This document shows positions 1 to 64,000 of a stretch of 64,000 bases of DNA, piece after piece. Below the pieces are notes generated by a model that did not search any database, was not told the DNA's origin, and saw nothing but the letters and a program-made list of their open reading frames with translations. Where the stretch lies: positions 1-64,000 of IMG/VR virus record IMGVR_UViG_3300025759_000075; one strand, given 5' to 3'. This DNA is from a virus. Every line of letters starts with the position of its first letter. The first letter of the stretch is position 1. Position numbers and translations under genes: made by a program.

Positions 1-57
1 TATTGCCGGAAAGACCCGCGTGTCGCCAGCACATACGAAAAGTATAAGGACCGCTAA
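1..57 (+). CDS. DnaA domain IV replication protein, C-terminal end only (partial)
   Basis: Only the last 18 codons and the stop lie in the window. They are identical in nucleotide sequence to the end of the complete gene at 39461-40180, a zinc-ribbon plus DnaA-domain-IV protein. The body of this copy lies upstream of position 1. The stop codon overlaps the rusA start by one base (TAATG), as in the second copy. This shows that a second dnaA-like gene precedes the window. Confidence 0.85.
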   Translation, partial: YCRKDPRVASTYEKYKDR

Positions 58-388
58 TGATCCTGCTACCTTACCCTGCGCCGCCCCTGTGGCCGAACAA
101 GCGCGCCCATTGGGCCAAGAAAGCCCGAGAGACAAAGAAGCATCGTGCATGGGCGCATGGGGCCGCACTGGCGGCAAAGCCCTCCGCTGACGGGGAGCCC
201 ATTCCGGTGCGAATCACGCTTTACCCAAAACCCAAAGGGCCAGCACCGGACAAAGACAACGTTGTTGCCAGCGCAAAGGCTTATCTCGATGGGATAGCTG
301 AAGCGATGGGAGTCAATGATCGTGCGTTCGCCTCGCCAATTGTTCGCATATCGGGAGAGCGCCTTAGCCAGATGGGGATTGAAATTGG
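1..388. repeat. Direct repeat A (dnaA end plus rusA), partner at 40124-40511
   Basis: Bases 1-127 are identical to 40124-40250, and bases 128-388 differ at only about 8 positions, giving near 98% identity overall. After base 388 the two copies diverge completely. The offset of 40123 bases equals the spacing between equivalent points of the two phage genomes in this window. The repeat is protein-coding, not a terminal or insertion-sequence repeat. Confidence 0.95.
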
Positions 389-395
389 CAAATAA
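57..395 (+). CDS. rusA: RusA family Holliday junction resolvase (copy A)
   Basis: 112 residues, the usual RusA length (about 120). RusA enzymes are dimeric, Mg-dependent nucleases that cut four-way DNA junctions during recombination and late replication. The catalytic pattern is visible: D65 and D67 in PAPDKDN, K74, D78 in YLDG and D88 in GVND. The N-terminal PPLWPNKR stretch also fits the family. The ATG overlaps the stop of the DnaA-like gene. The copy at 40180 differs at few residues. It works with ERF, SSB and NinB encoded at 36.2-38.0 kb. Confidence 0.9.
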   Translation: MILLPYPAPPLWPNKRAHWAKKARETKKHRAWAHGAALAAKPSADGEPIPVRITLYPKPKGPAPDKDNVVASAKAYLDGIAEAMGVNDRAFASPIVRISGERLSQMGIEIGK

Positions 396-534
396 CCCTA
401 AATTATGCGCGCACCATCAAACTCGGCGTCATGGGTTCTTTCACTCTGCCTGTACGAATTGCGGGGCGCTGTTTGTTGTGGTTCGCAAAGATCAGGTTGA
501 CGCTGCTTTTAGGCGCGTATTGTTGGGGAAATGA
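385..534 (+). CDS. Small zinc-ribbon-like protein, TTG start inside rusA
   Basis: 49 residues from a TTG codon lying within the last codons of rusA, preceded by GGGG about ten bases upstream. The protein has a C8-x-H-H and C23-x2-C26 arrangement suggestive of a zinc-binding knuckle, with a basic C-terminus. The equivalent TTG in copy B (40508) opens an unrelated 48-residue protein, so the slot is conserved but its content is exchanged. Function unknown. The start is an inference from this conserved position. Confidence 0.5.
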   Translation: MANNPKLCAHHQTRRHGFFHSACTNCGALFVVVRKDQVDAAFRRVLLGK

Positions 535-535
535 G

Positions 536-1141
536 ATGCAGCCCTACGATCCAGTTTTGACAGTGATAGCCAACGAGGCCCGCGTGCGTACTCCGCATGT
601 CTTTCACCTGATACACGCCATGAAGGCCGGTAAGTTCCACCAGGCTGCGTTCGCGCAATTCACAGGGCTAGAGGAACGCCATGTCGAACGGATGCTAGAG
701 GCAATCGAAAAACACGGCGTGGAGATTAAGGCGAAGCGTCAGCAGACGACACGGGGGCACCGCCTGCCCGATGACTGGACCTTGCCACAGGAATGGCGCG
801 ACTGGGCAATCAAGGAACGCAAGTGGGAGCCTTCTGTGGTATTGGAAGAAGCCGCGAACTTTGCCGATTACTGGCATGGCGTATCCGGCACGAAAGGCAC
901 GAAACTGGACTGGCAGGCAACGTGGCGCAATTGGGTTCGCAATTCCCGGCGCGCCACTGGCGATTATGTGCCAGTAGAGCAGCGCCAGACAGCGGAGGGC
1001 TGGGTAGCGTATTGCGAGCAGCAGCTACAGCGGTGCAAGGAAAAGAACTATCGTCAGGGCATCGAGGAATGGACTGCGAAGCTGAACGCGGCGCGCGATA
1101 AGGTAGCTGCCAATGTTCTGCCATTCCGGCGCGAAGCCTAA
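536..1141 (+). CDS. Putative phage replication (replisome organiser-like) protein
   Basis: 201 residues. The start ATG at 536 follows GGGGAAATGAG and sits just after the preceding stop. The N-terminal 70 residues look like a winged helix (FAQFTGLEERHVERMLEAIE). The C-terminal half carries DWQATWRNWVRNS, which resembles the closing motif of many phage O/DnaT-type replication proteins. Copy B has a DUF1376-type protein in the same slot after rusA, with a similar NWQSAWQTWV motif. I infer a helicase-loading or origin-binding role. The family cannot be fixed from sequence reading alone. Confidence 0.6.
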   Translation: MQPYDPVLTVIANEARVRTPHVFHLIHAMKAGKFHQAAFAQFTGLEERHVERMLEAIEKHGVEIKAKRQQTTRGHRLPDDWTLPQEWRDWAIKERKWEPSVVLEEAANFADYWHGVSGTKGTKLDWQATWRNWVRNSRRATGDYVPVEQRQTAEGWVAYCEQQLQRCKEKNYRQGIEEWTAKLNAARDKVAANVLPFRREA

Positions 1142-5878: not shown

Positions 5879-6081
5879 TGGGTGACTATGAAGCCGTACC
5901 GTGCCAGAGACCTGCGGGCCTTAGCGATAGCGATGTTATCATAACCCACGAATACACGCGAGGATGGGGAAGCTGTTGCTACAAGCGCAAGGTGGCCGAC
6001 ATTGATTGGTCTTTGGTGTTTGGCATTCATCGCGCACCCATAACCCAAACCCCACTTGCCCACAAAGGCAATACAGGCTAG
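5878..6081 (+). CDS. Small hypothetical protein, 67 residues
   Basis: The ATG overlaps the TGA of the previous gene inside the KRVRAEKG boundary sequence. It contains two adjacent cysteines (GSCCYKRK). Copy B has a zinc-ribbon protein in this slot. Its stop lies within the -10 box of the candidate terminase promoter. Confidence 0.5.
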   Translation: MGDYEAVPCQRPAGLSDSDVIITHEYTRGWGSCCYKRKVADIDWSLVFGIHRAPITQTPLAHKGNTG

Positions 6082-6084
6082 ATA
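6056..6084 (+). promoter_or_regulatory. Candidate late (terminase operon) promoter
   Basis: TTGCCC, a 17-base spacer and TAGATA. The block CCCCACTTGCCCA, AGGCTAGATAG is preserved at 47099-47132 upstream of terS in copy B, although the flanking genes differ. That makes it the best candidate for the start of the packaging and morphogenesis operon. Confidence 0.5.
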
Positions 6085-6143
6085 GGGCAGTATGGCTTCG
6101 ACCCCTAAAATCCTGCACATGATTTTTTTCAAAGGAAATCAAG

Positions 6144-6449
6144 ATGGCGCACGGGGGTAAGCGTCCCGGTGCCGGTAGGCCTAAAGGGGCTAAGGACAAG
6201 CTGACACGCGAAGCGGGTGCTAGCCTTGCTGAGATAGCGCGGGAACACACGGAATCCGCCATAGAGACACTTGTGCAGATTGCGGTTTCTGGTGAGAGCG
6301 AGGCTGCTAGGGTGAGTGCAGCAAACGCGCTGCTTGATCGTGGTTACGGTAGGGCTCCACAGTCAATCGAACACACGGGCGAGGTCGCATTCAGCAAAGC
6401 CACTGAACTGTCAGACGACGAACTGGCAAAGCTGGCAACCGGGCGGTGA
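6144..6449 (+). CDS. terS: Terminase small subunit
   Basis: 101 residues. The N-terminus HGGKRPGAGRPKGAKDK is the characteristic basic segment of a phage small-terminase/DUF5681-like group. The rest is helical (EIAREHTESAIETLVQIAVSGESEAARVSAANALLDRGYG). It recognises phage DNA and regulates the large subunit at the start of headful packaging. The ATG follows AAAGGAAATCAAG. It ends overlapping the terL GTG. The copy B protein differs at about three residues. Confidence 0.8.
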   Translation: MAHGGKRPGAGRPKGAKDKLTREAGASLAEIAREHTESAIETLVQIAVSGESEAARVSAANALLDRGYGRAPQSIEHTGEVAFSKATELSDDELAKLATGR

Positions 6450-7996
6450 CGATAACTCAGCAGGAGGCTGCAACGGAACTCCTGCGCCGCCGCCGCGCCA
6501 GATCCAGCCTTGTTGATTATGCCCGCTATATCGATGTTCCCGGCGCACCTGTCACTGAAGACGATCCCGACTGCGAGACATTCAAACCGGTCGAAACTGT
6601 TCTAGCCGAGCATCACGAAATCATCCTGAACGCCACACAGCGGTGCATAGAGCGCCACCGTGGGCGAACGATGCTGTTCCTGCCCCCTGGTAGTGCGAAG
6701 TCGACATACGCAACGGTCGTGTCATCAACATGGGCGCTGGGTAGGCAAGAGGGGTACAAGGTTATCAATGTCAGCTATGCCAGCGACATAGCTAAGAAGT
6801 TTGGCCGCCGAATGAGGGCGATAACCAAGCAGAAGAAGTTCGAAAATCTATTCTCCACCAGTTTATCGAAAGAGAGTAGCGCCGCTGATGAGTGGGCCTT
6901 GTTGAATGAATCTGAATTCATGGCTGGCGGCATTCTTTCTGGCATAACCGGGAACCGTGCAGATTTCGTATGTATTGACGATCCCATTCGCGGGCGACGT
7001 GACGCGGATTCGGAAACAATTCGGAAGAACACCCGCGATGCATACGATGATGATGTTCTAACCCGCTTGAAGCCCGGTGGGAGCGTGATGATTACGCAAA
7101 CGCGCTGGCATGAAATGGACCTTGCTGGCTCTATCCTGCCTGAAGGATGGAATGGCGAAAGCGGCATGATTGAGTGCCGTGATGGCGAGACGTGGGAAGT
7201 TATCTGCATTCCTGCCAAGGCTGAGCGTCACGACGACATGCTTGGGCGTTTGCCGGGTGAGTATATCTGGCCAGAATGGTTCGGTCCTGAGCATTGGGCT
7301 CCGTTCGAGCGGATGCCCCGTACATGGAATGCCCTCTACCAACAGCGACCAGCCCCCGACACAGGCGACTACTTCAAGCGCGAATGGATTATCGAGGAAG
7401 ATGCTGTTCCACCTCTCCAGACCATGCAGATATTCGGTGCATCCGATTATGCCGTGACCGCAAACGGCGGCGATTACACGGTGCATGTCGTCATGGGGAT
7501 AGATCACACGGGCCGCTTGTGGCTGCTTGACCTATGGCGGCAACAGGCATCGTCCGATGTATGGGTGGATAGCCTGTGTGCGTTGGTGAAGCAGTGGAAG
7601 CCGATAGGATGGGCAGAGGAAACCGGGCAGATCAAGTCGGGCGTTGGCCCGTTCCTGGTGAAGCGGATGCTTGAGACTGAGGCTTACGTGGCCCGCGAGC
7701 AGTTCCCGACACGCGGCGACAAAGCGGTGCGAGCCCAGTCCATTCGTGGGCGCATGGCAATGCAGGGGCTGCACGTTCCCCGTGGTGCGCCATGGTTGCC
7801 AACACTCATTTCCGAGATGATGTCTTTCCCCGTCGGCAGTCACGACGATCAGGTCGATGCGCTGGGTTTGGCAGGACAGTTGATTGCGAAGATGGATTTC
7901 GGTAAGACACCTGAAGACGAGAAACCTAAACCGGGGGCACCGCCGCGCGTCGTGGCGGATGGTGTTATCGCCCCGCCATTGAGGATGAGGCGGTAA
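6446..7996 (+). CDS. terL: Terminase large subunit
   Basis: 516 residues, the normal size. It has an N-terminal ATPase with Walker A PPGSAKST (about residues 80-87) and Walker B VCIDD (175-179), then an RNase H-fold nuclease with acidic residues in FGASDYAV and GGDYTV (about 334 and 343) and in SHDDQVDALG near the C-terminus. It powers DNA translocation into the prohead at the portal and cuts the concatemer. The GTG start overlaps the terS stop (GTGA). The copy B protein is about 95% identical. Confidence 0.95.
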   Translation: MTITQQEAATELLRRRRARSSLVDYARYIDVPGAPVTEDDPDCETFKPVETVLAEHHEIILNATQRCIERHRGRTMLFLPPGSAKSTYATVVSSTWALGRQEGYKVINVSYASDIAKKFGRRMRAITKQKKFENLFSTSLSKESSAADEWALLNESEFMAGGILSGITGNRADFVCIDDPIRGRRDADSETIRKNTRDAYDDDVLTRLKPGGSVMITQTRWHEMDLAGSILPEGWNGESGMIECRDGETWEVICIPAKAERHDDMLGRLPGEYIWPEWFGPEHWAPFERMPRTWNALYQQRPAPDTGDYFKREWIIEEDAVPPLQTMQIFGASDYAVTANGGDYTVHVVMGIDHTGRLWLLDLWRQQASSDVWVDSLCALVKQWKPIGWAEETGQIKSGVGPFLVKRMLETEAYVAREQFPTRGDKAVRAQSIRGRMAMQGLHVPRGAPWLPTLISEMMSFPVGSHDDQVDALGLAGQLIAKMDFGKTPEDEKPKPGAPPRVVADGVIAPPLRMRR

Positions 7997-8005
7997 GGCA
8001 TAGTG

Positions 8006-10318
8006 ATGGACAGCACCCAAGACTTCACCGGCACGCCTGAGCAGACGCGCGAGAAAGCCTCCGCGCCTATCCTGCAGGCCCTCAAGCGCTCGCAGGACGC
8101 GTTCAAGGAATGGGACGCCACCTGCCACGGTATCGATGACATCTACTCGCGCCACGGATCGTCCTATGAAACCCTGATGACCGATTATGGCGGATCCAGC
8201 TGGAAAGATGCACAGATGGACCTGTTCTGGTCATCGTCGGAAGTGCTGAAACCTGCAGTGTATGCGCGCCCGCCTGTTCCTGCGATTGCGCCGATCTTCA
8301 AGGATGGTGGCCGTCTGAAGTCAACCACGGCTGAATTGCTTGAGCGTGCGGCGGTATCGACCTTCAAGAAGACTGGCATTGACGATGTGATGCAGTCGGT
8401 GCGCGATGACCTGCTGTTCTCCGGCCGCGGTGTCATGTGGCTGCGGTATGAGAGCGACGATGGAAAGCGCGTCTGTGTAGAACACCTCGATCGCGATGAC
8501 TTCCTGCATGACGTGGCCCGCAAGTGGTCTGCCGTCGGCTGGGTGGCTGGCGGTTTCTGGATGTCTCGTGAAGAGATCAAGGAGCGGTTCAAGGGTCTGA
8601 CTGAAGACCAGATGGACACCATCAAGTTCCTTGAGCGCCGCGACGTGGACAACCGCGACGAAAAGGCAATGACTGCCAAGGCGCGTGTGTGGGAGGTCTG
8701 GCACAAGGCCAACAACCGCGTTTACTGGGTTACTGAGGGTCTGGATGTCTATCTGGACGATGGTGAGCCCCACCTGAAGCTTGATGAGTTCTTCCCCTGC
8801 CCACGGCCAGCCTATGGCACGCTGCAGCGGCGTAGCCTTATTCCTGTGCCCGACTTCGAACGCTATTCAGGCATGTTCGCCAAGATCAACACGCTGACGG
8901 CGCGCATTTACCTGCTGCTTGATCAGGTCAAGATGAAGGGCCTTATCCCTGCAGGAGGGGACATTGCAGACGCCATCCACCAGGTTATGCGCTCGGATGA
9001 CGACAGCATCGTTATCGGTGTTCCTGGCGCTGCCATGATGGAGGGCGCCGCAGTAGTGCAATGGTTGCCACTCGACCAGATCGCCGCCGCCATTACGGGC
9101 CTGATCGAAGCCCGCCGCCAGCTGATCGAAGACTTCTACCAGCTTTCCGGAATATCGGACATCATGCGCGGTGCGACACAGGCGGAAGAAACGCTTGGCG
9201 CCCAGCAGTTGAAGGCGCAGTTCGGTTCTGTGCGTGTGCGCCAAAAGATCGACGAGATGCAGCGGATTGCGGCTGAAGCGGTCAAGATCGCATCGGAGAT
9301 ACTGGCCGAAAAGTTCGACGGTGACACGCTGCTTGCCATGTCGCAGATGGAATTGCCGACACGCAAGGACATCGAAAAGCGGCTTAAGGAGATTGAAAGC
9401 GCCGCCGAAAAGGAAATGAAGGCGCTGGCTGACAAGGCCATGGAAGGCGGGCAGGACATGGATCCTGCACAGGCCCAGCAGATGCTTCAACAGGCGCAAC
9501 AGGAGATTGTCTCCCGCTATGCGCCGATGTTCGAAGAAGCCGAGAACCTTGTGCCGATCGATGACGTGGTGGACCTGCTGCGCGATGACCGGGCGCGCTC
9601 GTTTGCCTTCGAGATCGAGACCGATTCCACTATCATGGTGGATGAGATTGCCGAGAAACAGGCCCGCAACGAGTTCATGGGGGCGTTCAACAGCGCCACG
9701 CAGGGGCTTATGGGGCTGGCTGGCATGGGTGAGCCCGGGGCCAAGCTTGCGGGTGAGTTGATGAAGTTCGTGCTGGCGCCCTATCGCGTCGGCCGGCAGA
9801 TGGACACGGCGATTGACGACTTCGTGAAGCAGGCGCCTGCGATGATGGCAGGACAGGGTGAAGGTGAAGATCAGCAGGGCGTTGCGGCACTGGCTGAAGC
9901 CGAGATGGAAAAGGCCAAGGCTCAGATGGCCAAGGTCGAGGCCGATAGCGCGCTCAAGCAGGCTGAAAACCAACGCAAGTTCGCTGAATTGCAGGTAAAG
10001 GCGCAGAAGGATCAGGCGGACGCTCAGGCCAAGATGGTCAAACTGCAGCAGGATGCGGATGCAATGGGAATCAAGGCGCAGGAAGCGTTGGCCAATGTCG
10101 ATCTGCTGCGGGCACAGACCATGAAGGCCATGTCCGAGGCTGGAATAGCTATCGACACCGCGCAGCTTGACGAGTTCCGTTCGCTGTCGGACATTGAGAT
10201 CAAGCGCAGCCAGGAACAGCGCGCCATCGCCAATGACGCAAGGCAGGCTGCACGGGCCGATCGCCAAGAGGTGCGGGAGGTTATGGAGCCGCCCGAAACC
10301 GAGATGGAGGACGATTGA
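8006..10318 (+). CDS. Portal protein
   Basis: 770 residues, large like P22-type portals rather than the roughly 530 residues of T7. It directly follows terL, as portals do. The body contains the conserved KPAVYARPPVPAI, then FSGRGVMWLRYE, PVPDFERYSGMFAKIN and FYQLSGISDIMRG segments. The last 170 residues are a long alanine- and glutamine-rich coiled coil (AEMEKAKAQMAKVEADSALK), which would form the barrel above the ring. ATG 8006 is preferred to the GTG three bases earlier. Confidence 0.85.
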   Translation: MDSTQDFTGTPEQTREKASAPILQALKRSQDAFKEWDATCHGIDDIYSRHGSSYETLMTDYGGSSWKDAQMDLFWSSSEVLKPAVYARPPVPAIAPIFKDGGRLKSTTAELLERAAVSTFKKTGIDDVMQSVRDDLLFSGRGVMWLRYESDDGKRVCVEHLDRDDFLHDVARKWSAVGWVAGGFWMSREEIKERFKGLTEDQMDTIKFLERRDVDNRDEKAMTAKARVWEVWHKANNRVYWVTEGLDVYLDDGEPHLKLDEFFPCPRPAYGTLQRRSLIPVPDFERYSGMFAKINTLTARIYLLLDQVKMKGLIPAGGDIADAIHQVMRSDDDSIVIGVPGAAMMEGAAVVQWLPLDQIAAAITGLIEARRQLIEDFYQLSGISDIMRGATQAEETLGAQQLKAQFGSVRVRQKIDEMQRIAAEAVKIASEILAEKFDGDTLLAMSQMELPTRKDIEKRLKEIESAAEKEMKALADKAMEGGQDMDPAQAQQMLQQAQQEIVSRYAPMFEEAENLVPIDDVVDLLRDDRARSFAFEIETDSTIMVDEIAEKQARNEFMGAFNSATQGLMGLAGMGEPGAKLAGELMKFVLAPYRVGRQMDTAIDDFVKQAPAMMAGQGEGEDQQGVAALAEAEMEKAKAQMAKVEADSALKQAENQRKFAELQVKAQKDQADAQAKMVKLQQDADAMGIKAQEALANVDLLRAQTMKAMSEAGIAIDTAQLDEFRSLSDIEIKRSQEQRAIANDARQAARADRQEVREVMEPPETEMEDD

Positions 10319-10473
10319 TGAACGTCACCATAGTTGAAAGCGGGGGCTATCCCGTTACGCCTGTAGATGACGGCGCACCTCCTGCCGAAGTGGTCGATGA
10401 AGGCGGTTATCCCATTACCATCGTGGAAAGCGGCGGCGTTCCGTTCGTTCTCAATAATTACACACCCGCATAA
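10318..10473 (+). CDS. Small VESGGYP-repeat protein
   Basis: 51 residues built from a repeated motif: VTIVESGGYPVT, VVDEGGYPIT, IVESGGVPFVL. The ATG overlaps the portal stop (TGATG). Copy B has the same design at 51389. Its position between portal and scaffold suggests a small virion or head-assembly protein. The function is unknown. Confidence 0.65.
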   Translation: MNVTIVESGGYPVTPVDDGAPPAEVVDEGGYPITIVESGGVPFVLNNYTPA

Positions 10474-10485
10474 GGACTGAGTGAC

Positions 10486-10743
10486 ATGGCGAATGCAGAA
10501 AGATTGATGGCTCTGGGCGTAACAGGCCCGATGGCTGTGGAAATGGCGGCACAGATCGAAGCGCAGGAAGGCAATGCCGACCGTCTTCGTGAACTGGGCA
10601 TGGTCCCTTCGCTTGCCGCGGAACTGGCTGGCCAGATCGACGCTGAAGGCGCGACCGACGCGCCGAAGCTTGCCGCGCATAGCATGGTGCCCGATGTCGC
10701 GGTGGAAACCGTGGCGCAGATCGAGGCTGACAGGGCTGAATAA
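10486..10743 (+). CDS. Small triple-repeat protein (LG..AxEMAAQIEA)
   Basis: 85 residues made of three helical repeats: LGVTGPMAVEMAAQIEA, LGMVPSLAAELAGQIDA and HSMVPDVAVETVAQIEA. Preserved in copy B (51574), also three repeats. A structural or scaffolding helper is likely from context only. Confidence 0.65.
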   Translation: MANAERLMALGVTGPMAVEMAAQIEAQEGNADRLRELGMVPSLAAELAGQIDAEGATDAPKLAAHSMVPDVAVETVAQIEADRAE

Positions 10744-10847
10744 TGCCGGGGCTTGTCCGTCGTCTGGTCGATACTGGCATGTCCTATCAGCAGGCCCAGC
10801 AGTTCAGCGACCTGTCTGGAAGCGACATTGCGACACCAGTTACATAA
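10743..10847 (+). CDS. Very small repeat-like protein, 34 residues (copy A only)
   Basis: TAATG overlap with the preceding stop. The sequence LVDTGMSYQQAQQFSDLSG has the same Gly-Met/Pro turn and helix spacing as the repeats in the preceding gene. Copy B lacks it, with both flanks otherwise matching, so it is a clean insertion or loss. Confidence 0.5.
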   Translation: MPGLVRRLVDTGMSYQQAQQFSDLSGSDIATPVT

Positions 10848-10875
10848 CTTGCGACGGAAAATGAAAGGAACTGAC

Positions 10876-11025
10876 ATGACTACGAAGAAAGAACAGGAAA
10901 AGATCGACAACGACGACAACGGCCTTGCCGATCGCATGAAGACGATGGACCCGCGCTTCGATGAGAAGGGTAAGCCCGTCGAAGAGGAAAAGAAGGAAGG
11001 TCAGACCAAGACCGCCAGCAAATAG
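10876..11025 (+). CDS. Small charged conserved protein, 49 residues
   Basis: ATG preceded by AAAGGAACTGAC. The chain is almost entirely charged (TKKEQEKIDNDDNG, then MDPRFDEKGKPVEEEKKEG) and likely disordered. Copy B at 51862 is closely similar. It lies in the head gene cluster, function unknown. Confidence 0.65.
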   Translation: MTTKKEQEKIDNDDNGLADRMKTMDPRFDEKGKPVEEEKKEGQTKTASK

Positions 11026-11034
11026 GAGGCTGTC

Positions 11035-51828: not shown

Positions 51829-51861
51829 CAAGCTTGTGACGGGGAAACGAAAGGAACTGAC

Positions 51862-53593: not shown

Positions 53594-53608
53594 TTGAGGG
53601 GTAGCGCA

Positions 53609-54619
53609 ATGGCTATCGTTTCAGATCGTAACTACGGGCAGATTCTGACTGCCTCCGTTGCTCGTCGTTCGTCCGACGTGCAAAATATCGTTTACAACTC
53701 CACTCCCCTGACAGCGATCCTTAAGGACATGGGGAAGATCAAGCAGAAGCGCGCGGGCGGGCCGGAACTTCGTGTCCCGATCATGTTCGACAAGCTCGAA
53801 GCACAGTGGTTCACTGGCTACGACAAGCTGCAGATCACTCCCAAGGAACTGCTGAACAGCGCGGTCTACAACTGGTCGCGTTGCGTTGGTATGTTCTCGC
53901 TCACCGGCACTGAACTGCTTTACAACAGCGGTGAAGACGAAGTTATCGACCTCATGGAAACCTACATGGATGCTGCTGAGCAGTCCGTGAAGGAAGCCTT
54001 CGAGGAAGGTCTCGTCGGTGATGGTACGGCAGACGGTGGTCGCCAGATGACGGGCCTTGGTTCGGCGGTTCCCATCGTCACCAATACCGGCGTATATGGC
54101 GGAATCGACCGTGCAACGGTTCCTAACTGGCGCACGTCCACCTTCGACATCCCGGCTGGCGATGTTGCGGGCTACACCACTTGGGACAGCACCACGGCAC
54201 GGGCGATCATCGAAAAGATCACCCTGCAGCGTTCGCGCGGTGGCCGTTATCCTGACCTGATCATTGCCGACGCCAATTCGTATGCTGCCATCTCGGCTGC
54301 ATTCGTGGCACACCAGCGTCTCGCATCGGAACGTCTGGCACGCCTTGGCTTCACCGGCATGACGATCATCACCCCGGCAGGCCCGGTCGACGTGATCGCA
54401 GCAGGCGGTATCGGCAATGTCATGCCCGCAGATACGTTCTTCGGCATCGATACGCAGGGTATGGCGATCTACACGTTCCCCGGTCAGGAATTCGTTCCTT
54501 TCCATCCGGGCAACGGCATGCGTCCTATCAATCAGGATGCGGTGGCTCAGGGTGTGGTCTGGACAGGGCAGCTTGTCCTTGAAAACCCGCTCTTCACCTA
54601 TCGCGCCATCACGGCCTAA
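53609..54619 (+). CDS. Major capsid protein (copy B)
   Basis: 336 residues from ATG 53609, chosen because it aligns with the copy A start. Differences cluster in short surface-like stretches (ILKDMGKIKQKRAGG). GAGGGG upstream. Confidence 0.85.
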   Translation: MAIVSDRNYGQILTASVARRSSDVQNIVYNSTPLTAILKDMGKIKQKRAGGPELRVPIMFDKLEAQWFTGYDKLQITPKELLNSAVYNWSRCVGMFSLTGTELLYNSGEDEVIDLMETYMDAAEQSVKEAFEEGLVGDGTADGGRQMTGLGSAVPIVTNTGVYGGIDRATVPNWRTSTFDIPAGDVAGYTTWDSTTARAIIEKITLQRSRGGRYPDLIIADANSYAAISAAFVAHQRLASERLARLGFTGMTIITPAGPVDVIAAGGIGNVMPADTFFGIDTQGMAIYTFPGQEFVPFHPGNGMRPINQDAVAQGVVWTGQLVLENPLFTYRAITA

Positions 54620-54634
54620 AGAGAGGACTGAAAC

Positions 54635-54952
54635 ATGGTTACTTCACCTTTCCGCACCACTGGCCAGCTTGGCCCGGATCTGCACCAGCAGGTTACTCCG
54701 GGCGAAGTCTGGTACGACAATCCCGATCTTGTCAGCCCCGTCGTGGGGACTCGCGAGACCGGCGACGACGGTTTCGACTATGTCTGGGTTCGCGCTTCTG
54801 CGACCATCTCGGCAGCATCGGCACCGGGCACGCAGGTTTCGATCACGGTTCCTGCTTACACGGCAGCGGCTGGCGCAGGCGGGTTTTATGCCCCGATTGC
54901 CGGTGTAACATCCGGCGATTACTTCTGGGCCAAGAAGGGTTCGACCCTTTAA
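54635..54952 (+). CDS. Head decoration/fibre-like protein (copy B)
   Basis: 105 residues, about 97% identical to 13667 (ATISAASAPG for ANVAAASAPG). Followed by a terminator. Confidence 0.6.
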   Translation: MVTSPFRTTGQLGPDLHQQVTPGEVWYDNPDLVSPVVGTRETGDDGFDYVWVRASATISAASAPGTQVSITVPAYTAAAGAGGFYAPIAGVTSGDYFWAKKGSTL

Positions 54953-54958
54953 TTCGGT

Positions 54959-54989
54959 GGGGGGCCTTTGTGCCCCCTTCCTTCCTCTA
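54959..54989 (+). terminator. Rho-independent terminator after capsid genes (copy B)
   Basis: GGGGGC (54960-54965) pairs with GCCCCC (54972-54977), followed by TTCCTTCCTCT. The stem sequence differs from copy A but the position is the same. Confidence 0.65.
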
Positions 54990-55005
54990 GTTGGAGCGTC
55001 CATCC

Positions 55006-55740
55006 ATGACACAGTTAGCAGTTATCGACGAACGGGACCTTTCGGTTACGCCCGTATTCAAAGTTATCCAGGTTGAAGACATCAACGCCTCCGAGCGCGC
55101 GGGCCATCTTGTGATGAAGACGCGCGAAGTCGTAGAGGTGCGCATTGCGGGTTATCGCGATGTGAAGGTTTTCCCCTCTGACGCTGTATGGCGGCGCGAA
55201 GGCAACAGGGCGATCACCTATGCCGAACGCTGGCCTGAACAGTACGCATCCTATCACAATGGCGACGACCAGATGGCAGTGGGCACGCCGCTTGAAATGC
55301 TGCGTCCGTATGGCATTTCGGAATCGATGATTTCGGTCTGCCGCGCGCTGAAGGTGTATTCGATTGAAGCCCTGTATTCTCTTGAGGATCGGGGCCTCAA
55401 GGCGCTCGGCATGAACGGCAATCGGCTAAAGGACGCGGCCCGCCAGTTTATGTCCGAGCGCCAAACCACTGCATCGGCACTGTCCGAGGTTGAAGCCCTT
55501 AAGCAGCGCATTGCCGAGCTTGAGGCATCTGGTTCCAAGGTCGAGGTTCCCAAGGAACTGCCGACTGATGACGATGTGGAGGCTGCGCTGGCTGCATCCG
55601 ATAGCGAGTTTGAGGGTATGAGCGACGACAATATCAAGGAAGAGATCGCGTTGCTTGCAGGTTCCAAGCCGCGCGGGAACCCCTCTCGCGCCACATTAGT
55701 CAACTCCCTGCGCGAATTGCGCGAAGCAAAGGCGGCATAA
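55006..55740 (+). CDS. Conserved structural-cluster protein (copy B)
   Basis: 244 residues, collinear with 14045, including the YSLEDRGLKALGMNGNRLK helix-hairpin-like segment and the LEM/HeH-like end (DDNIKEEIALLAGSKPRG). TTGGAG ribosome site as in copy A. Confidence 0.55.
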   Translation: MTQLAVIDERDLSVTPVFKVIQVEDINASERAGHLVMKTREVVEVRIAGYRDVKVFPSDAVWRREGNRAITYAERWPEQYASYHNGDDQMAVGTPLEMLRPYGISESMISVCRALKVYSIEALYSLEDRGLKALGMNGNRLKDAARQFMSERQTTASALSEVEALKQRIAELEASGSKVEVPKELPTDDDVEAALAASDSEFEGMSDDNIKEEIALLAGSKPRGNPSRATLVNSLRELREAKAA

Positions 55741-56463
55741 ATGACGGTTCTTGCGGCTCTCCAATCGGCGGCTCTGCGGCTTGCAGGTCGGAGGCCGCAG
55801 ACCTTCTTCGATGCGTCTGGCCAGCTTGAGCAGGAACTGTGTGATCTTGTAAACGAGGTTGCACAGGACATCGCGCAATACACCGATTGGCAACAGCTTA
55901 TCCGCCTGCATACGATTGTGGGTGACGGGGCGACTTCGGAATTTCCTCTGCCCGACGATTATGGCAGCTTTCCTATCAAGGGAGACGTGCAGGACTATAC
56001 GACGTGGGCGTGGGGGTATCACCACTACACCGACCTCGATACGTTCCTGTTCGATCAGGCGCGCAACTTCAACGCACTACCGGGCGGCTGGATTATCTAC
56101 GGCGACCTGATGCGGTTCTCGCCTGTTCCGGGTGAGACTGTGCAGGCGCGCTTCCCGTATCTGACAAAGAACATCGTCCGTGCGTTTTCCACAGTTCCGA
56201 AAGAAGAGTTCACGGCAGACGACGATACGTTTCTTCTGCCCGAACGCCTTCTGACGCTTGGACTCGTATGGCGCTGGCGCGAGAATAAAGGTCTTGCTAG
56301 CACTGGCGACCAGGAAGCGTATATCAAGGCTCTCGACGATTACGCAGCAAAGAGTAAGGGGCCGGTTGTGATCAGACGTAACGGCGCAAGGCACTTTCCA
56401 GGAACGCACGCCGCCTTTCCATGGCCCCTCGGTGAGGGTGCCAATTACTGGCCCGCTGGCTGA
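55741..56463 (+). CDS. Head-to-tail adaptor protein (copy B)
   Basis: 240 residues, collinear with 14780 (DLDTFLFDQARNFNALPGGW). One-base overlap with the nozzle gene. Confidence 0.7.
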   Translation: MTVLAALQSAALRLAGRRPQTFFDASGQLEQELCDLVNEVAQDIAQYTDWQQLIRLHTIVGDGATSEFPLPDDYGSFPIKGDVQDYTTWAWGYHHYTDLDTFLFDQARNFNALPGGWIIYGDLMRFSPVPGETVQARFPYLTKNIVRAFSTVPKEEFTADDDTFLLPERLLTLGLVWRWRENKGLASTGDQEAYIKALDDYAAKSKGPVVIRRNGARHFPGTHAAFPWPLGEGANYWPAG

Positions 56464-58379
56464 TGGTTTATCCTCGCCGCCGAATGCAACCCAAGCCAAG
56501 GCGCTCGCAGACGCGTAAGTGGCCTGCGCCTGTCTCCGGCTGGGTATCCAATCGCATGCTGTCTGATCCCAAGTCCATTGAGGGGCCGGGCGCTGCGGTC
56601 ATGGATAACTTCTTTCCCCGCTCGACGGGTGTTGCGCTGCGCAGGGGCAAAGCGCGCTATGCCACGCTTGAAGATGAGGCGTTGGATGTCGAGGCTTTGT
56701 TCACCTATCACGATGGCACAAGCGAGCAGATGTTTGCGGCAAATGAAACGACCATTTATGACGTAACCAACGTGGTATTCCCTGAGCCGCAAGACCTGGG
56801 CGATGGTGACGGCGATTCCTTCGGGGACGGTGAAGGCAATATCATTGGCTGGAACTCGACGGCGGGCCTTGATGTGGCAGGCGGTTATACCTCCGGCGAC
56901 TGGTCGGTTATCCAGTTTGCCACAACAGGCGGGATTTACCTTGTCGGGGTCAATGGTTCGGATCTGGGCTTTATCTTCGACGGTGAGCGGTTTTATCCGG
57001 CTGTCGATGGCGGCACGACGCAGCTTAATTATGACGGGCTGACAGAAGACTTCGTAACCGGCGAAACGATCACGGGCGGCACAAGCGGGGCGACAGCTAC
57101 GCTATGGCGGCAAGAAGTGGCAACCGATACAACCGGACAGCTATTCCTCTACAACGTGACAGGCACGTTCGTGGATGACGATGTTCTGACGGGTGAAACG
57201 GCAGGGGAGGCAGATGCGATTGGCGCGCCTATTCCTGACGTAGCGCCGGGGATGGACTTCGGATCGCTGACTAGCGCAGACATGTCGTTCGTGTGGTCCT
57301 ACAAGAACAGGCTCTATTTCGCGCAGAAGAACAGCCTTTCGGCATGGTATCTCGACGTTGATAGCATCGGCGGCACGGCAACCGAATTTCCGATGGGGGG
57401 CATTTTCGCCAACGGCGGTTCGCTGATGTTCGGGCAGCGGTGGTCGCTGGAATCGGGCGGTTCTGGCGGTCTGTCGGAGCAGAACATATTCGTGTCGACC
57501 GAAGGCGAGGTGGCTATCTATCAGGGCACGTCGCCTAACGAAGCCTCTACATGGTCGCTGGTCGGGGTTTATCGCATTGGTGCGCCGCTTGGGAAACGCG
57601 CTTACATTCGCGGAGGTGGCGACTTGGCCATTGCCACGTCGGTCGGGCTGGTGCCGCTTTCCAAGGCTATTTCGCTGGATGTCACGGCCATGAACGTAGC
57701 ATCGATCAGCTACAAGATTGCCGACGCTTGGACGGAGGCTGTCAATCTGCGCGGAGAGCAGAACTGGCAGTGCATGATATGGCCGGAAAAGAAGATGGCC
57801 GTTATCGCGTTGCCAGACATGGTGGGGGGCAGCGATCCGGTGATGTTCGTTTCCAATACCGAAACGGGCGCATGGGGGCGTTATACGAACTGGCAGGGCC
57901 TTTCGATGGCGGTCTATCAGGGACAGCTTTATTTCGGCTCGCCTGAGGGGCGTATCTATCAGGCAGAAACAGGCGGGCTGGATGATGGGGAAACCTATTC
58001 GGGCGCAGTTGTGCCGCTGTTCGATGACATGGCGTTCTCTGCCGGCTCCAAGGTTGGCAAGATGGCGCGTGCGCGCGTGCGTGCCTCGACTACGATTGTC
58101 GATAATGTATCCCTGTTGGCCGATTATGACGTGACGCTTCCGCCTGCTCCCGATGCGACTGCCGTGTTCGCGTCCAACACATGGGGCGCAGGCGTATGGG
58201 GGCAATCGACATGGGATTCCGCAACGCCGAACGTGCTTAATCAGGAATGGCGATCTGCGGGCGCTATCGGGTATTCGCTTGCACCGTGTTACCAAGTAAG
58301 TAGCGGAAGTCCTGCGTCGATACAGGTCGAATTGATCGATATTGAAATGCTCTACGATGTCGCTGAGGCGGTGACTTGA
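56463..58379 (+). CDS. Tail nozzle protein (copy B)
   Basis: 638 residues, collinear with 15502. The inserted beta domain (TGGTSGATATL, then FVDDDVLTGETAGEA) is the most variable part. Confidence 0.7.
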   Translation: MVYPRRRMQPKPRRSQTRKWPAPVSGWVSNRMLSDPKSIEGPGAAVMDNFFPRSTGVALRRGKARYATLEDEALDVEALFTYHDGTSEQMFAANETTIYDVTNVVFPEPQDLGDGDGDSFGDGEGNIIGWNSTAGLDVAGGYTSGDWSVIQFATTGGIYLVGVNGSDLGFIFDGERFYPAVDGGTTQLNYDGLTEDFVTGETITGGTSGATATLWRQEVATDTTGQLFLYNVTGTFVDDDVLTGETAGEADAIGAPIPDVAPGMDFGSLTSADMSFVWSYKNRLYFAQKNSLSAWYLDVDSIGGTATEFPMGGIFANGGSLMFGQRWSLESGGSGGLSEQNIFVSTEGEVAIYQGTSPNEASTWSLVGVYRIGAPLGKRAYIRGGGDLAIATSVGLVPLSKAISLDVTAMNVASISYKIADAWTEAVNLRGEQNWQCMIWPEKKMAVIALPDMVGGSDPVMFVSNTETGAWGRYTNWQGLSMAVYQGQLYFGSPEGRIYQAETGGLDDGETYSGAVVPLFDDMAFSAGSKVGKMARARVRASTTIVDNVSLLADYDVTLPPAPDATAVFASNTWGAGVWGQSTWDSATPNVLNQEWRSAGAIGYSLAPCYQVSSGSPASIQVELIDIEMLYDVAEAVT

Positions 58380-58780
58380 TCGTAACCGGCGAACACGTCG
58401 CGCAATTCGTTTCCCAAAAGATAGGCGTGGGGTTGTGCCCACCTTACACGACGCTTGGGCTAGAGCGCGATGGTGTGCTTGTCGGCGGTGTCGTGCTGAA
58501 TTGCTGGGAGGGTGCAGACATACATCTAACGGCAGCGGGGGCGCATTGGACGCCGGGTTTTATGCGTGCTGTAGGACGGTATGTTTTTGATCAGCTTGGA
58601 TGCCTGCGTTTCACGATGGAAACGGAAAAGCCTGCAGTGGCGGAATATGCCAAGAGGCTCGGCGGTGTGGTTGAGGGGAGATTAAGGGACCACTTTGGCG
58701 AGGGCCGCGATGCGATCATTATCGGGGTCTTGAAAAAGGATTACGCTTACTATAGACATGGCGAAACCGAGCGCCGCTGA
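58376..58780 (+). CDS. GNAT-like protein, TTG start (copy B)
   Basis: 134 residues, same TTGA overlap and length as 17412. The core TLGLERDGVLVGGVVLN and YAKRLGGVVEGRLRDHFG are retained. A rare start kept in both phages suggests deliberate low expression. Confidence 0.6.
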   Translation: MIVTGEHVAQFVSQKIGVGLCPPYTTLGLERDGVLVGGVVLNCWEGADIHLTAAGAHWTPGFMRAVGRYVFDQLGCLRFTMETEKPAVAEYAKRLGGVVEGRLRDHFGEGRDAIIIGVLKKDYAYYRHGETERR

Positions 58781-58791
58781 ATTCCTTCAGG

Positions 58792-58813
58792 TGCTTCCAC
58801 TAAACAGGAAGCA
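58792..58813 (+). promoter_or_regulatory. Hairpin masking a ribosome site (copy B)
   Basis: TGCTTCC (58792-58798) pairs with GGAAGCA (58807-58813), loop ACTAAACA. The 3' arm carries the GGAAG five bases before the TTG at 58818. Counterpart of 17830-17851 with different paired bases. Confidence 0.6.
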
Positions 58814-58817
58814 TGCC

Positions 58818-59636
58818 TTGAAATCTCCTAAGCAGCCAACTCCGCCAGATCCTAACGTGGTCGCGCAAGCCCAAGCCGGGATGAACATCGACACGGCTCT
58901 TGCTCAGCAGAGCCTCAACATGGTTGATACGGTGAACCCGTGGGGCACGACCAGCTATGCGCAAAACGGCCAGACAAGCTTTGTCGATAGCAACGGTCAG
59001 CGCGTTACGCTGCCGCGCTATACCCAAACCACTAACTTATCGCCAGAACAACAGGCGATTTTCGACGCCTCGCAGGGCGCGCAGACGAACCTTGCCAATA
59101 TCGCGCAGGAACAGTCTGGCCGTGTGCAGGAAACTCTTTCCGACCCGTTCCAGTTTACCAATCAGGATGCAGCCGATTGGGCCTATGATCTGGGCCAGTC
59201 ACGCATTGCTCCCCAGCAGCAGCAGACCGAAGCCGCGCTTCGTGATCGGCTGATCAATTCCGGCATTCGCCCCGGCACACAGGCTTGGGATTCGGAGATG
59301 GCCCGCATGACGCAGGGCTTTAACGATCAGAACAACCAGTTAGCTTTGCAGGGCCGTGGACAGGCGTTTTCCGAGAACCTTGCCACGCGGAATCAGTCGC
59401 TTAATGAGTTGTCCGCGCTACTCTCCGGCTCGCAGGTATCGAACCCTGCGCAGATGTCGTCTGCCACGCCTCAAGTAGGGGTCGGTGGGGTCGATTATTC
59501 CGGCATGGTCCAGAACAATTACAACAACCAGATGCAGCAGTATAACGCCCAGATGCAAAATCGCGGCGGTATGCTCGGTGGCTTATTTGGCTTGGCAGGC
59601 TCGCTTGGCGGCGCTGCTATTCGAAGGGGTTTCTGA
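58818..59636 (+). CDS. Putative ejection protein 1 (copy B), TTG start
   Basis: 272 residues from TTG 58818 (MKSPKQPTPPDP), exactly matching the copy A length. An ATG at 58758 would add 20 residues with no counterpart in copy A and overlap the previous gene. It has the same Gln/Asn-rich body and C-terminal glycine zipper (GGMLGGLFGLAGSLGGAAI). Confidence 0.55.
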   Translation: MKSPKQPTPPDPNVVAQAQAGMNIDTALAQQSLNMVDTVNPWGTTSYAQNGQTSFVDSNGQRVTLPRYTQTTNLSPEQQAIFDASQGAQTNLANIAQEQSGRVQETLSDPFQFTNQDAADWAYDLGQSRIAPQQQQTEAALRDRLINSGIRPGTQAWDSEMARMTQGFNDQNNQLALQGRGQAFSENLATRNQSLNELSALLSGSQVSNPAQMSSATPQVGVGGVDYSGMVQNNYNNQMQQYNAQMQNRGGMLGGLFGLAGSLGGAAIRRGF

Positions 59637-60400
59637 TGATCCTCCCACAGTCTGCAATGGCCGCAGTCGATCCCGTAGCGCAGGCTTTGACGCCTGAAGC
59701 CGCGTTCACTTGGGCGCATGGTGGCTTGAAGATGACGCCGGAACAAGCGGCAATGCAGCGTCAACAGGGTATGGCGCGTAGCCGGGGTGATTACTCGCCT
59801 ATCCAGCATTGGACACAGGGCCTTGCGCGTGTGGCGGATAACGTCATGGGTGCACTAGAGGCACGTAAAGCCGACAAGCAGATTGCAGCGGGTGCAGATG
59901 CAGACCGCGCGCTGATGGAAGCGATTGCGGGCGGTGGTGTGGATGACACCATGATCGCCCGCGCACTAATGGACCCTAATGTAGGGCAGGGCGTGAAAGA
60001 GTTTGCGGGCATGGAGTATGCCGCGCGTAGGCCCAAGCAACAGGCTCCGCTAGAGGTTGAGCGGCTAGCTATGCTGGCGAACGATCCCAGCGCAGCGCCT
60101 TACGTGCGCGAGGCAGCAGCGGCCAAGCTTCGCAATCAAAACGATCCGCTTATCACAACGACCTTGCCGGGTGACAGGTTCTATTCGGGGCCGCAATCCG
60201 GTCTGGCAGCAGCATTGGGAGGAGGTGGTCAAGAATCTGGGGCACAGTCTACGGCGGTGCCTCCCGAGGCGGTGGCGGACCTAATGGCCGATCCGTCACC
60301 GCAGGCTATGGCAGAGTTTGATGACGCATTCGGACAGGGTGCGGCAGAGCGCGCTCTAGGAGGTCAGGCGTCCGCGCCTGATCCCTTTCCCGCAAGTTAG
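59636..60400 (+). CDS. Putative ejection/structural protein 2 (copy B)
   Basis: 254 residues, 21 longer than 18675 through an unrelated C-terminal third (AEFDDAFGQGAAERALGGQ). Both copies end GGQASAPDPF. Confidence 0.5.
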   Translation: MILPQSAMAAVDPVAQALTPEAAFTWAHGGLKMTPEQAAMQRQQGMARSRGDYSPIQHWTQGLARVADNVMGALEARKADKQIAAGADADRALMEAIAGGGVDDTMIARALMDPNVGQGVKEFAGMEYAARRPKQQAPLEVERLAMLANDPSAAPYVREAAAAKLRNQNDPLITTTLPGDRFYSGPQSGLAAALGGGGQESGAQSTAVPPEAVADLMADPSPQAMAEFDDAFGQGAAERALGGQASAPDPFPAS

Positions 60401-60407
60401 CGGAAAC

Positions 60408-60782
60408 ATGCTCGACAACATCACTATGCAGGCCGAAAGTAATGGCAGGCGTTATGGTGCAGGCGGTGGACTGCTGCGCTCACCTAAGGGAGCGATGGGG
60501 GAAATGCAGGTAATGCCAGCGACAGCCCGAGATCCCGGCTATGGCGTGCGCCCTTGGGACGGTTCGTCGCCGGATGATCTAGCCCGCGTTGGCCGCGATT
60601 ATCGCAGGGCCATGGAGCGGGAGTTCGGCGGGGACTATGCGGCGATGTTCGGGGCTTATAACGCTGGGCCTGGCCGCGTAAGGCAATTGCTGGATCGTTA
60701 CGGCGGCGACTGGTTGCGCTATGCTCCTGCTGAAACCCGTAACTATGTAAACAAAAACATGCGCGCTCTGAGGGGCAGATAA
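60408..60782 (+). CDS. Virion-associated lytic transglycosylase (copy B)
   Basis: 124 residues. Catalytic Glu in QAESNGRRY, then GAMGEMQVMPATARDP and AYNAGPGRV. The GEMQ reading is closer to the classic SLT motif than the FAMQ of copy A. Confidence 0.85.
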   Translation: MLDNITMQAESNGRRYGAGGGLLRSPKGAMGEMQVMPATARDPGYGVRPWDGSSPDDLARVGRDYRRAMEREFGGDYAAMFGAYNAGPGRVRQLLDRYGGDWLRYAPAETRNYVNKNMRALRGR

Positions 60783-63538
60783 TGGCTGAAAATCGTTTCC
60801 AGAAATATGTCCAGCCACAGCAGGGCGTAGTGTTCACCGATCCGAACGCGGCGGCGGAGCAGCAGCGCGAAGAAGATCGCCTTGCGATGGATCGCGAGCG
60901 CATTAGGTTAGCTCGCGAAGCTGCCGACAGAGCAGCGGCTAACGACGCCATCACGCGCGAAGAAAAGGCTGCTGAAAAAGCGCAAGCTGACAAGGAGGCT
61001 GCGGCACTAGAGGCCGCGCAGCGTAGCCAAGTGCGCGAAACTGCCGCTACTATGAGCACGGTTATCGAGAAAGCAAAGGAGGCGAAGCGTAGATCGAACG
61101 ATTGGTTCGCTACTGGCTTTGGCGCGGAAACTGCTCTTGATTGGGGCGGCTCGGCAGCGGCAGACGTTCGAGAACTGCTTGCGCCGATTAAGGCTAATCA
61201 GGCTTTCACCACGCTTCAGAAAATGCGCGAGGCTTCGCCAACTGGTGGCGCGCTTGGTGCGGTATCCGAACGCGAACTTGCCCTGCTTCAAAGCACGATC
61301 ACCGGCCTTGAGCAGTCGCAGTCTGATGCGCAATTCCAGTATGCAATGGACGAGATTGTCCAGCGTTACACGCGCGCCCTTGCCGCGCTGGAAGATGGCG
61401 ACCGCTATTACCGTGAAAACGGCTCGATGGAAGGCTATGTCGGCCCTTCAGATGAATATCTGAACAGCTACAATCCTGACAATCCAGAGCCTAGAGGAGC
61501 CGCGGGTTCCGGCGCTACGCAAACCAGCCTTGAACTGCCGCAGGAATACCAGGATCGTCACGCGGCCTATCTGCGCCAGAATTGGGGCAATATCACGCCT
61601 GATGGTTATGCGCAGTTCCGTGCTGGGCTTGATAACGAGTTCCCAGAGTACGGCTCGCCTAACCTTGAGGCATACCGCGATATTGTTCCCTCCTTCAACC
61701 AGATGGCGGCAGAGGGGCAACCTCCTGAAGCCGCAGGGCAGGTTCCTGCTGCAACGCGCGAACTGTCTGGATTCGATCAGTTCCGTAATAATATTATCTC
61801 AGACCCTTTAGGTACAGGGGTAACGTCCGCGATCAATAGTGCCACAGGCGGCCTTCCTGATTTGCTCGCGGGTCGCAGGTTGCAGGCGGCGGAAGAGCTT
61901 AACCCTAAAGCAGCCTTTGTGGGCGACCTTGTTGGCAGTACGGCAGGATCTGCACTTTTTGGTAGCGGCCTGACTGTTGCGGGGGCGGGCAAGTTCGCTC
62001 CGTTTCTCGGTGATGCGCTTTACGGGACAATGTACGGCGCAACCAGCGATGAAGACCCTGTAACTGGCGCATTGCTTGGCTTAGGTTCGTCTATAGTGGG
62101 CGACCAGGCTGGTAAATACGCGGGCCGTGCAATCAACTCGATCCGTCTGCCTGATATGAACCTTTCCGAAGGGCAGCGGGTCATTACCCAGACGGTGCGC
62201 GAAGCGGGTAATCAGGATGAAATCGCACGCGCGCTAATGAGCGCCGATGAACTTGGCGTGCCGATGACGCTGGCCGACGCATCTCCTGAATTACAGTCTC
62301 TTGCCGGTTCGGCAGTTCGCTTCTCTCCGACCACGGCGGGCGTAGCGCGGCAGACCATGGCGCGCAGGAACGAAGGCCAGTTTGACCGGCTTGCCGAGGC
62401 AGTGGCGCGTGATCTTGGCCCGGTTGAGAATATCCCTCAGCGCAGCGCCGATCTATTGCAGCAGGCACGCACTAATGCAGGGCCGTTGTATGAGCAGGCT
62501 TATGCGGCTCCAGGTGCGGATATGGTGGACCTTACCGACCTTGCCGACCGTCCGACATTCGAAAAGGCATTGCGCGAAGCCTATAACGAGGTGCTTGACG
62601 AAGGTCTTGACCCGTCTGCCGCTGGCATTGTCCAGACTGAAGGTGGCATGGTCATGGCCTCGCCGTCATGGCAGTCCTTGGACTATGCGAAGCGCGGTCT
62701 GGACAACATTATTGAACGCGGTATTCGGCAAGGCGATATGCCGGAAGTACGCCGTGCACAGGCTATGAAATCAACCCTATTGCAGCGCATGGATGAAGCC
62801 AATCCCGCCTATGCGGAGGCTCGTCGCGCTTATGCAGGGCCAGCGCAGGAGCGTTCGTTTATGGAGCGTGGACGCAACGTGTTCAAAGAAGATTCCGAAC
62901 AGTTGGGCGTGGATATAGCCAATCTGACGCCGGAACAAATCGGCCAAACGAGGCTCGGCGTTCAAAGCGGCACGATGCGCGAGGCGCGCAAGGTGCGGAA
63001 CAACGGCAACCCGTGGGGTAGAATGGACAACCCTGAACGGGAAGCCATCTATAAAAATGTCTATGCCAGCGCCGAAGATGCCGACATCGCGCGGCTGCTG
63101 TCTCAGCGGGACCTGGAACTTCAGCTTGCAGGAAGCGCCAATCGTCTCATTGGCAACAGCGCCACGGCGGAACGCGAGATTCAAGACGAGTTCTTCAAGC
63201 ATCGCACCGGCATGGGCGGCGATGTCGCAATGGGTATTGTTGAAACCGGCGCGCTCGGTGGGCCGTGGCTGACCGTAGGCAAAGGTATTGCAGATCGCGT
63301 GTTCAAGGATCGTCGCGAAAAAGCTGCAGCAACCGCAAACCGCGCACTAGCCGACGATCTTGGCCCGCTGTTGCTCAATCAGTCGCCTACAAGCTCGGTT
63401 GATGCCTTGTCGCAGATGATGGCTGAGGATGAAGCCTATCGCGCTATTGCGGAAAGCCTGACGCAGCAGGGTGACATGTGGGGCCGCCGTATCGGAACAG
63501 GGGCAGCTACGGCGCTAACCGATTACCTGGCTTACTAA
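60782..63538 (+). CDS. Large internal virion protein (copy B)
   Basis: 918 residues, collinear with 19755. The N-terminal 20 residues and the middle (VREAGNQDEIARALMSADELG) differ, the glycine-rich segment and coiled coil are retained. Confidence 0.7.
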   Translation: MAENRFQKYVQPQQGVVFTDPNAAAEQQREEDRLAMDRERIRLAREAADRAAANDAITREEKAAEKAQADKEAAALEAAQRSQVRETAATMSTVIEKAKEAKRRSNDWFATGFGAETALDWGGSAAADVRELLAPIKANQAFTTLQKMREASPTGGALGAVSERELALLQSTITGLEQSQSDAQFQYAMDEIVQRYTRALAALEDGDRYYRENGSMEGYVGPSDEYLNSYNPDNPEPRGAAGSGATQTSLELPQEYQDRHAAYLRQNWGNITPDGYAQFRAGLDNEFPEYGSPNLEAYRDIVPSFNQMAAEGQPPEAAGQVPAATRELSGFDQFRNNIISDPLGTGVTSAINSATGGLPDLLAGRRLQAAEELNPKAAFVGDLVGSTAGSALFGSGLTVAGAGKFAPFLGDALYGTMYGATSDEDPVTGALLGLGSSIVGDQAGKYAGRAINSIRLPDMNLSEGQRVITQTVREAGNQDEIARALMSADELGVPMTLADASPELQSLAGSAVRFSPTTAGVARQTMARRNEGQFDRLAEAVARDLGPVENIPQRSADLLQQARTNAGPLYEQAYAAPGADMVDLTDLADRPTFEKALREAYNEVLDEGLDPSAAGIVQTEGGMVMASPSWQSLDYAKRGLDNIIERGIRQGDMPEVRRAQAMKSTLLQRMDEANPAYAEARRAYAGPAQERSFMERGRNVFKEDSEQLGVDIANLTPEQIGQTRLGVQSGTMREARKVRNNGNPWGRMDNPEREAIYKNVYASAEDADIARLLSQRDLELQLAGSANRLIGNSATAEREIQDEFFKHRTGMGGDVAMGIVETGALGGPWLTVGKGIADRVFKDRREKAAATANRALADDLGPLLLNQSPTSSVDALSQMMAEDEAYRAIAESLTQQGDMWGRRIGTGAATALTDYLAY

Positions 63539-63778
63539 GAGGCAGACCGAGAGAACCCCGCCGATTGCATATAGCGGCCAGCGGGGTTTCGGTTCTTCAT
63601 AACCTGCTTTGAATCCGGCCAGATAGGCTTGGCGCACCATGCGGTCTTTGATGCCCTGCAATGACGCTTCGTTAAGCCTGCGACGTGAACGGCGCGCAAG
63701 AAAGCCTTCTGCCTCGCTTTCCTTGAAACGGGCGCGGTGTATTTCCCGCTCAATAGCCTCGATATTCGCGTCTGCCAT
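63515..63778 (-). CDS. Small membrane protein, antisense (copy B)
   Basis: 87 residues: charged helical N-terminus (IEREIHRARFKESEAEGFLARRSRR, described in parts) and one C-terminal membrane segment (LYAIGGVLSVCLLVSQVIG). It overlaps the ejection-protein end by 24 bases. Same orientation and layout as 22553, low identity. Confidence 0.7.
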   Translation of the reverse strand: MADANIEAIEREIHRARFKESEAEGFLARRSRRRLNEASLQGIKDRMVRQAYLAGFKAGYEEPKPRWPLYAIGGVLSVCLLVSQVIG

Positions 63779-63822
63779 GCCGGTCTTGATAGCATTCGCC
63801 CTATCGTGTAACAAGGGACAAC

Positions 63823-63864
63823 GCGGTTGAATCCACCTCACGCGATTGCCTTGAAACGCAAGCG
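63823..63864 (+). promoter_or_regulatory. Repeated late-gene leader element (copy B)
   Basis: GCGGTTGAA, TCC, ACCTCACGCG, then CGATTG (63843-63848) and CAAGCG (63859-63864), one mismatch in the stem. Counterpart of 22872-22913. Confidence 0.5.
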
Positions 63865-63875
63865 GAGTTCAACCT

Positions 63876-64000
63876 GTGCCACGAAATTCATCTGGCGATT
63901 ATTCTCTACCGGCTGGCACCACTGTCAACACAGGGGATACGCTGCTGGTTAGCCAGCACAATCCACCATTCCAGGATGTCGCACAGGCGCTTTCATCGTC
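63876..64000 (+). CDS. Tail collar/fibre protein N-terminus (copy B, partial)
   Basis: Starts GTG (VPRNSSGDYSLPAGTTVNTGD) and matches the copy A tail-collar protein at 22925 through QHNPPFQDVAQAL. Cut by the window end. Confidence 0.75.
   Translation, partial: MPRNSSGDYSLPAGTTVNTGDTLLVSQHNPPFQDVAQALSS

Follow-up and report, generated by a model that had tools for sequence, protein, structure and literature searches.

Two related phages read head to tail in a single IMG/VR contig: a probable assembly join at short identical repeats

In the part of the CheckV paper that deals with over-length contigs (PMC8116208), contigs from IMG/VR in which a genome is repeated are regarded as probable assembly artefacts, and end repeats of odd-numbered length are considered likely to correspond to assembler k-mers. 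The record analyzed here, IMGVR_UViG_3300025759_000075, is similar to these cases in being an over-length viral contig that probably originates from assembly, with end repeats whose lengths are likely those of assembler k-mers. However, the cases presented in that part of the paper consist of the same genome repeated, whereas two different genomes are joined here, and a k-mer frequency test would probably miss such a join. The locus can also be compared with the variant components treated in the corresponding part of the Phables paper (PMC10563150), in which related mosaic phages share unitigs where short-read assemblers break or take a wrong path; unlike the Phables graphs, the graph considered here was deduced from finished contigs and not from reads. 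Among named phages, the top-listed relative is Microcystis phage Mwe-JY13 (PP438406, 41,296 bp; 70.9% amino acid identity for terL and 47.6% for the major head protein). Its single-unit length near 40 kb is like that of the units described below, yet it is a different phage. A megablast search with the late region of the first unit (positions 6,000-23,000) gave no match among named phages.

The record is 75,939 bp long and the window, i.e. the whole stretch of DNA that was analyzed, corresponds to its first 64,000 bases. According to a BLAST comparison of the record with itself, it is collinear with itself at an offset of about 41 kb. Three blocks (E-values all reported as 0.0) cover 6,120-10,737 versus 47,216-51,825 (80.7% identity), 10,848-19,076 versus 51,833-60,037 (75.3%) and 20,028-22,507 versus 61,010-63,489 (72.6%). 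They confirm, far above chance, the proposal of the first-pass annotation that the gene order from terS to the ejection proteins is present twice. The same holds for the repetition of the dnaA-end/rusA segment at an offset of 40,123, positions 1-392 being 97.7% identical to 40,124-40,515. Beyond the window, the record stays collinear with the first unit as far as 35,841, its final 321 bases being 92% identical to 35,520-35,841. The late genes of the two units share 68-81% identity and the units as a whole are about 68-98% alike, when only aligned stretches are considered.

The window reads as a first unit (A), then a recombination/replication module (R, 35.7-40.25 kb with the repeats that flank it), then a second unit (B). 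Unit A together with R (positions 1-40123, plus strand) would constitute a complete, circularly mapping phage genome of 40,123 bp (A-R), as suggested by the exact recurrence of positions 1-127 at 40,124-40,250 and by a join from R to A in another contig, 3300025889_000002. Unit B (plus strand, 40124-64000 in the window and on to 75,939 in the record) appears to be a second, related phage devoid of its own module (R'); it is collinear with A at about 41 kb and identical to contig 3300025769_000370 over 35,816 bp. Profile matches of the ORFs from unit A include RusA, a primosomal protein, terS, terL, portal, head, tail and internal virion proteins, and the ORFs of unit B match them in size and order. 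Thus, rusA of unit A (57-395, plus strand, phrog_34) has a copy at 40,180-40,521. The terS and terL genes (6144-7996, plus strand, phrog_2538 and phrog_38) correspond to 47,228-49,095, and the portal, head, tail and large internal virion genes (8003-22556, plus strand, PHROG matches) to 49,092-63,538, both sets being included in the self-repeat.

The statement that only one early region is present reflects the places where the window and the record end: the minus-strand block of unit B lies past 64,000 and the R module there is cut off. A junction had also been suspected at 28-29 kb, which our data refute, since homologous sequence is present in unit B (68.5-69.3 kb) and an independent contig that contains A only (3300006919_000173, 35,856 bp) passes through 28-29 kb at 100% identity. 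This contig also spans, at 100%, the whole minus-strand ORF block of unit A (28679-32995), which is an ordinary gene block and no junction. The seam is instead located at 40,079-40,250.

Module R proper (35881-40078, plus strand) encodes, according to Pfam matches, ERF recombinase, HNHc_6/DUF968, NinB, HNH_3 and DnaA-C domain proteins. It is flanked by two exact repeats that are shared by both phages. The left one (143 bp, 35738-35880) lies within an exonuclease gene whose ORF starts at 35,525. The right one (172 bp, 40079-40250) covers the end of the DnaA-like gene, whose ORF ends at 40,180, and the start of rusA; it is the site of the probable misjoin from R to B. R and both repeats amount to 4,513 bp (35,738-40,250), and the copy carried by the window is identical to that of 3300025889_000002, an 80,572-bp record that carries both R and the diverged R' (73-93% alike in matching parts). 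A-R and B-R' have exactly two shared runs whose length allows merging at k=123-127; the third in length measures 80 bp. A pattern search of IMG/VR retrieved the left repeat from all four related records and the right one from three of the four, the R' pattern from the 80-kb record and a 26-kb record only, and the R pattern, besides the window's record, from the 80-kb record only.

Such identical DNA at the edges of the modules of two phages would be expected from recent homologous exchange. Since the module carries its own recombination genes, its exchange is plausible and B-R hybrids may exist. Four ORFs matching HNH_3 were found in the record (37993-38562, 44688-45434, record positions 75021-75626, and 11175-11666 of L004 on the minus strand, position 7327 of L004 being record position 67327); one is located within R and another just before the left-repeat copy of unit B. 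It is tempting to speculate that homing-type cleavage by such proteins could help to drive exchange at the flanks of the module. The DnaA-like protein (39461-40180) has a C-terminal DnaA DNA-binding domain (PF08299) as its sole Pfam match, and a scan for its close relatives gave three loci in two IMG/VR contigs.

A scan of IMG/VR with terL from unit A gave 71 loci, which by our reading of the list belong to 70 contigs; the sole one with two terL copies is the 80-kb record, which reads R', B, R, A. Besides 3300006919_000173, which contains A only, and 3300025769_000370 (35,839 bp), which contains B only, a 26,019-bp contig (3300007344_000206), found with the large virion gene of unit B, has B as sole unit and reads B then R'. 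These four records are 99.99-100% identical to A and/or B of the window, so that A or B or both occur in four further datasets. At position 15665 of unit B (record position 55788), the 80-kb record has a C, whereas the window record and 3300025769_000370 have a T and the 26-kb record agrees with the window; because of this private base, the dataset of the 80-kb record cannot simply be a duplicate of the others.

The joins were examined in seven records by an exact test in which the full repeat had to be flanked on both sides by 60 specific bases. The window record contains A to R and R to B, the 80-kb record R' to B, B to R and R to A, and the 26-kb record B to R', while no join was found in the other four of the seven. 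Hence, the assemblies disagree on what comes after B (R in one, R' in another) and on what comes after R (A in one, B in another). Every switch of order sits in the 143-bp (35,738-35,880) or the 172-bp (40,079-40,250) exact repeat, the left one being crossed by A to R, B to R and B to R' joins in different contigs. Furthermore, all but one of the 26,019 bases of the 26-kb record agree with a circular B-R', whose path it follows across the left repeat.

Of the origins put forward by the first-pass annotation, an assembly join between co-occurring phages is the one upheld by these contradictory orders, by switches confined to exact repeats longer than k and by the position of the contig ends. 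The window is very probably such a join of separate phages of about 40 kb each, a judgment that includes the version with three genomes discussed below. In the simplest version, two related co-occurring phages would have circular maps, A-R (40,123 bp) and B-R' (40,349 bp). The 143-bp and 172-bp exact runs would flank both recombination/replication modules and, each being longer than the assembler k, both genomes would traverse the same two short edges of the assembly graph. The assembler would have gone through A, the left repeat, R and the right repeat, and then out into B instead of back to A. Any physical A-R-B molecule is presumably absent.

De Bruijn graphs built from A-R plus B-R' at k=99, 123, 127 and 143 consist of six unitigs, i.e. 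A, B, R, R' and the two repeats. At k=123, the predicted A edge (according to edge convention) is identical to 3300006919_000173 over all 35,856 bases. At k=127, the predicted B edge has the length of 3300025769_000370 (35,839) and differs from it by 1 mismatch, which stems from a private base of the 80-kb record used for the prediction; the A edge coincides with the exact start of the window record and the exact end of the 80-kb record. Altogether, six of eight contig ends are exact to the base at branch points predicted with k=123 or 127. The other two, the end of the window record and the start of the 80-kb record, are 23 and about 11 bases short, respectively, and this count leaves out both ends of the 26-kb record, which are not at branch points. 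The two k values were deduced from the contig ends themselves; 123 and 127 are standard assembler k-values. The occurrence of A in one sample and B in another carries little weight, as both single-unit contigs end exactly at A/B branch points. Their ends suggest that sequence sharing those runs was present in both samples. The same six unitigs are obtained at these four k values from two monomers, from a dimer or from the three-genome model. The graph alone cannot tell monomers from a dimer, and their separation consequently rests on the conflicting contigs.

Over the six joins, the two monomers A-R and B-R' explain four, two contigs then having a single misjoin each, while either dimer, A-R-B-R' or A-R'-B-R, explains three. 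All six are accounted for if three genomes, A-R, B-R and B-R', co-circulate, R having been recently exchanged into some B phages. This is a version of the assembly-join reading, with which its probability overlaps, and we consider it rather unlikely. The contig would still be an arbitrary walk, here via the 4,513-bp shared element, and short reads could not have resolved a shared R of 4.5 kb; however, the join from R to B would be genuine hybrid DNA. The identity of R over 4,513 bp between the 80-kb record and the window is consistent with this proposal, as are the recombination genes (ERF, NinB, RusA) of the module and its edge. Moreover, repeats of 143-172 bp can normally be resolved by read pairs, yet R is joined to B in two assemblies, once on either side. 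This counts against a mere misjoin, and a B background with R may truly exist. The cost is a third genome, and no contig with R on B alone was found in IMG/VR, where the R pattern is restricted to the 80-kb record and the window's own. It is likewise doubtful that a cassette (exonuclease, ERF, NinB and DnaA-like genes, with RusA at the edge), with fixed identical linkers (143 and 172 bp) on its two sides, moves as a unit between co-circulating phages; in that case, all three genomes would exist and the seam from R to B would be a true hybrid instead of a misjoin. We rejected, as sole explanation, a collapsed figure-eight in which both phages have one identical R, since the 80-kb record has a different second module, R'; the idea survives in the three-genome proposal.

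Only with the dimer A-R-B-R' would the succession A, R, B of the window record be a physical molecule; in all other models it corresponds to none. A real heterodimer, either a replicative concatemer or a circular 80-kb molecule formed by recombination in co-infected cells, is very unlikely. Two records do hold both units head to tail, and the 100-bp exact end repeat of the 80,572-bp record, which could be taken for the closing of an 80,472-bp circle, counts against a join, being the same sign as that used for closure of relatives. However, this repeat lies wholly inside the 143-bp run and shows only that the contig starts and stops there. The window and 26-kb records are incompatible with the order A-R'-B-R, and the 80-kb record with the order A-R-B-R'. 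The heterotypic concatemer of the first-pass annotation is thus not retained: one sample shows B running into R', and a mosaic relative (3300009603_000028) closes as a single 37-kb unit. Two tandem prophages in a host chromosome are extremely improbable. Integrases do occur in some relatives, PF00589 (tyrosine integrase) being above the cut-off in 3 of the 10 records searched (G004, G020, G023). However, the window record, the 80-kb record and the 37-kb relative all lacked matches to PF00589 and to PF00239 (serine recombinase), whereas the control genomes were matched in 14 of 14 cases for PF00589 and 10 of 14 for PF00239. Both ends of the record are phage genes, and other contigs run on past them into R or R'. 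The earlier remark that no integrase or host gene separates the units stands for these two integrase profiles, and for host genes among the proteins profiled, which represent part of the ORFs. A tRNA search of the record found none.

With this record, genome size and gene content would be overestimated for this phage group, and one would be led to assume tandem prophages, which are probably not real. The record provides a worked case of a two-species chimera that could escape single-genome duplication checks. Resolved as an assembly join, it gives one complete genome of 40.1 kb (A-R) and indicates that the own module of B is R'. What is real is a pair of mosaic phages whose modules (exonuclease, ERF, NinB, HNH, DnaA-like) have identical DNA at their edges.

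No closed A-R or B-R' contig was found in our searches. The mosaic relative 3300009603_000028 (37,396 bp) has the same gene order and is 92% identical to the window around the DnaA-like gene and rusA but far more distant in terL. Its only self-match is an exact end repeat of 123 bp, so that it closes as one unit, a 37.3-kb circle. A single terL is present in each of 20 additional relatives selected for their size (33-48 kb), and eight of these, at 40.4-47.8 kb, have exact end repeats of 69-127 bp; G004, a relative from an isolate genome, has no exact end repeat. A scan of genome contigs gave 3 loci, the nearest, from Rhizorhapis suberifaciens (terL 78%), being too distant to help with the join.

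The two units also differ in accessory genes. At roughly corresponding places, A encodes a phrog_7 endolysin (26875-27444) and B an N-acetylmuramidase (PF11860, record positions 67327-68142). Near its start, unit B has two ORFs with N6/N4 methylase matches (42277-43902). Unit A encodes a C5 cytosine methyltransferase (33919-35325), part of which shares 76-83% nucleotide identity with Caulobacter, Roseobacter and Pseudanabaena phages.
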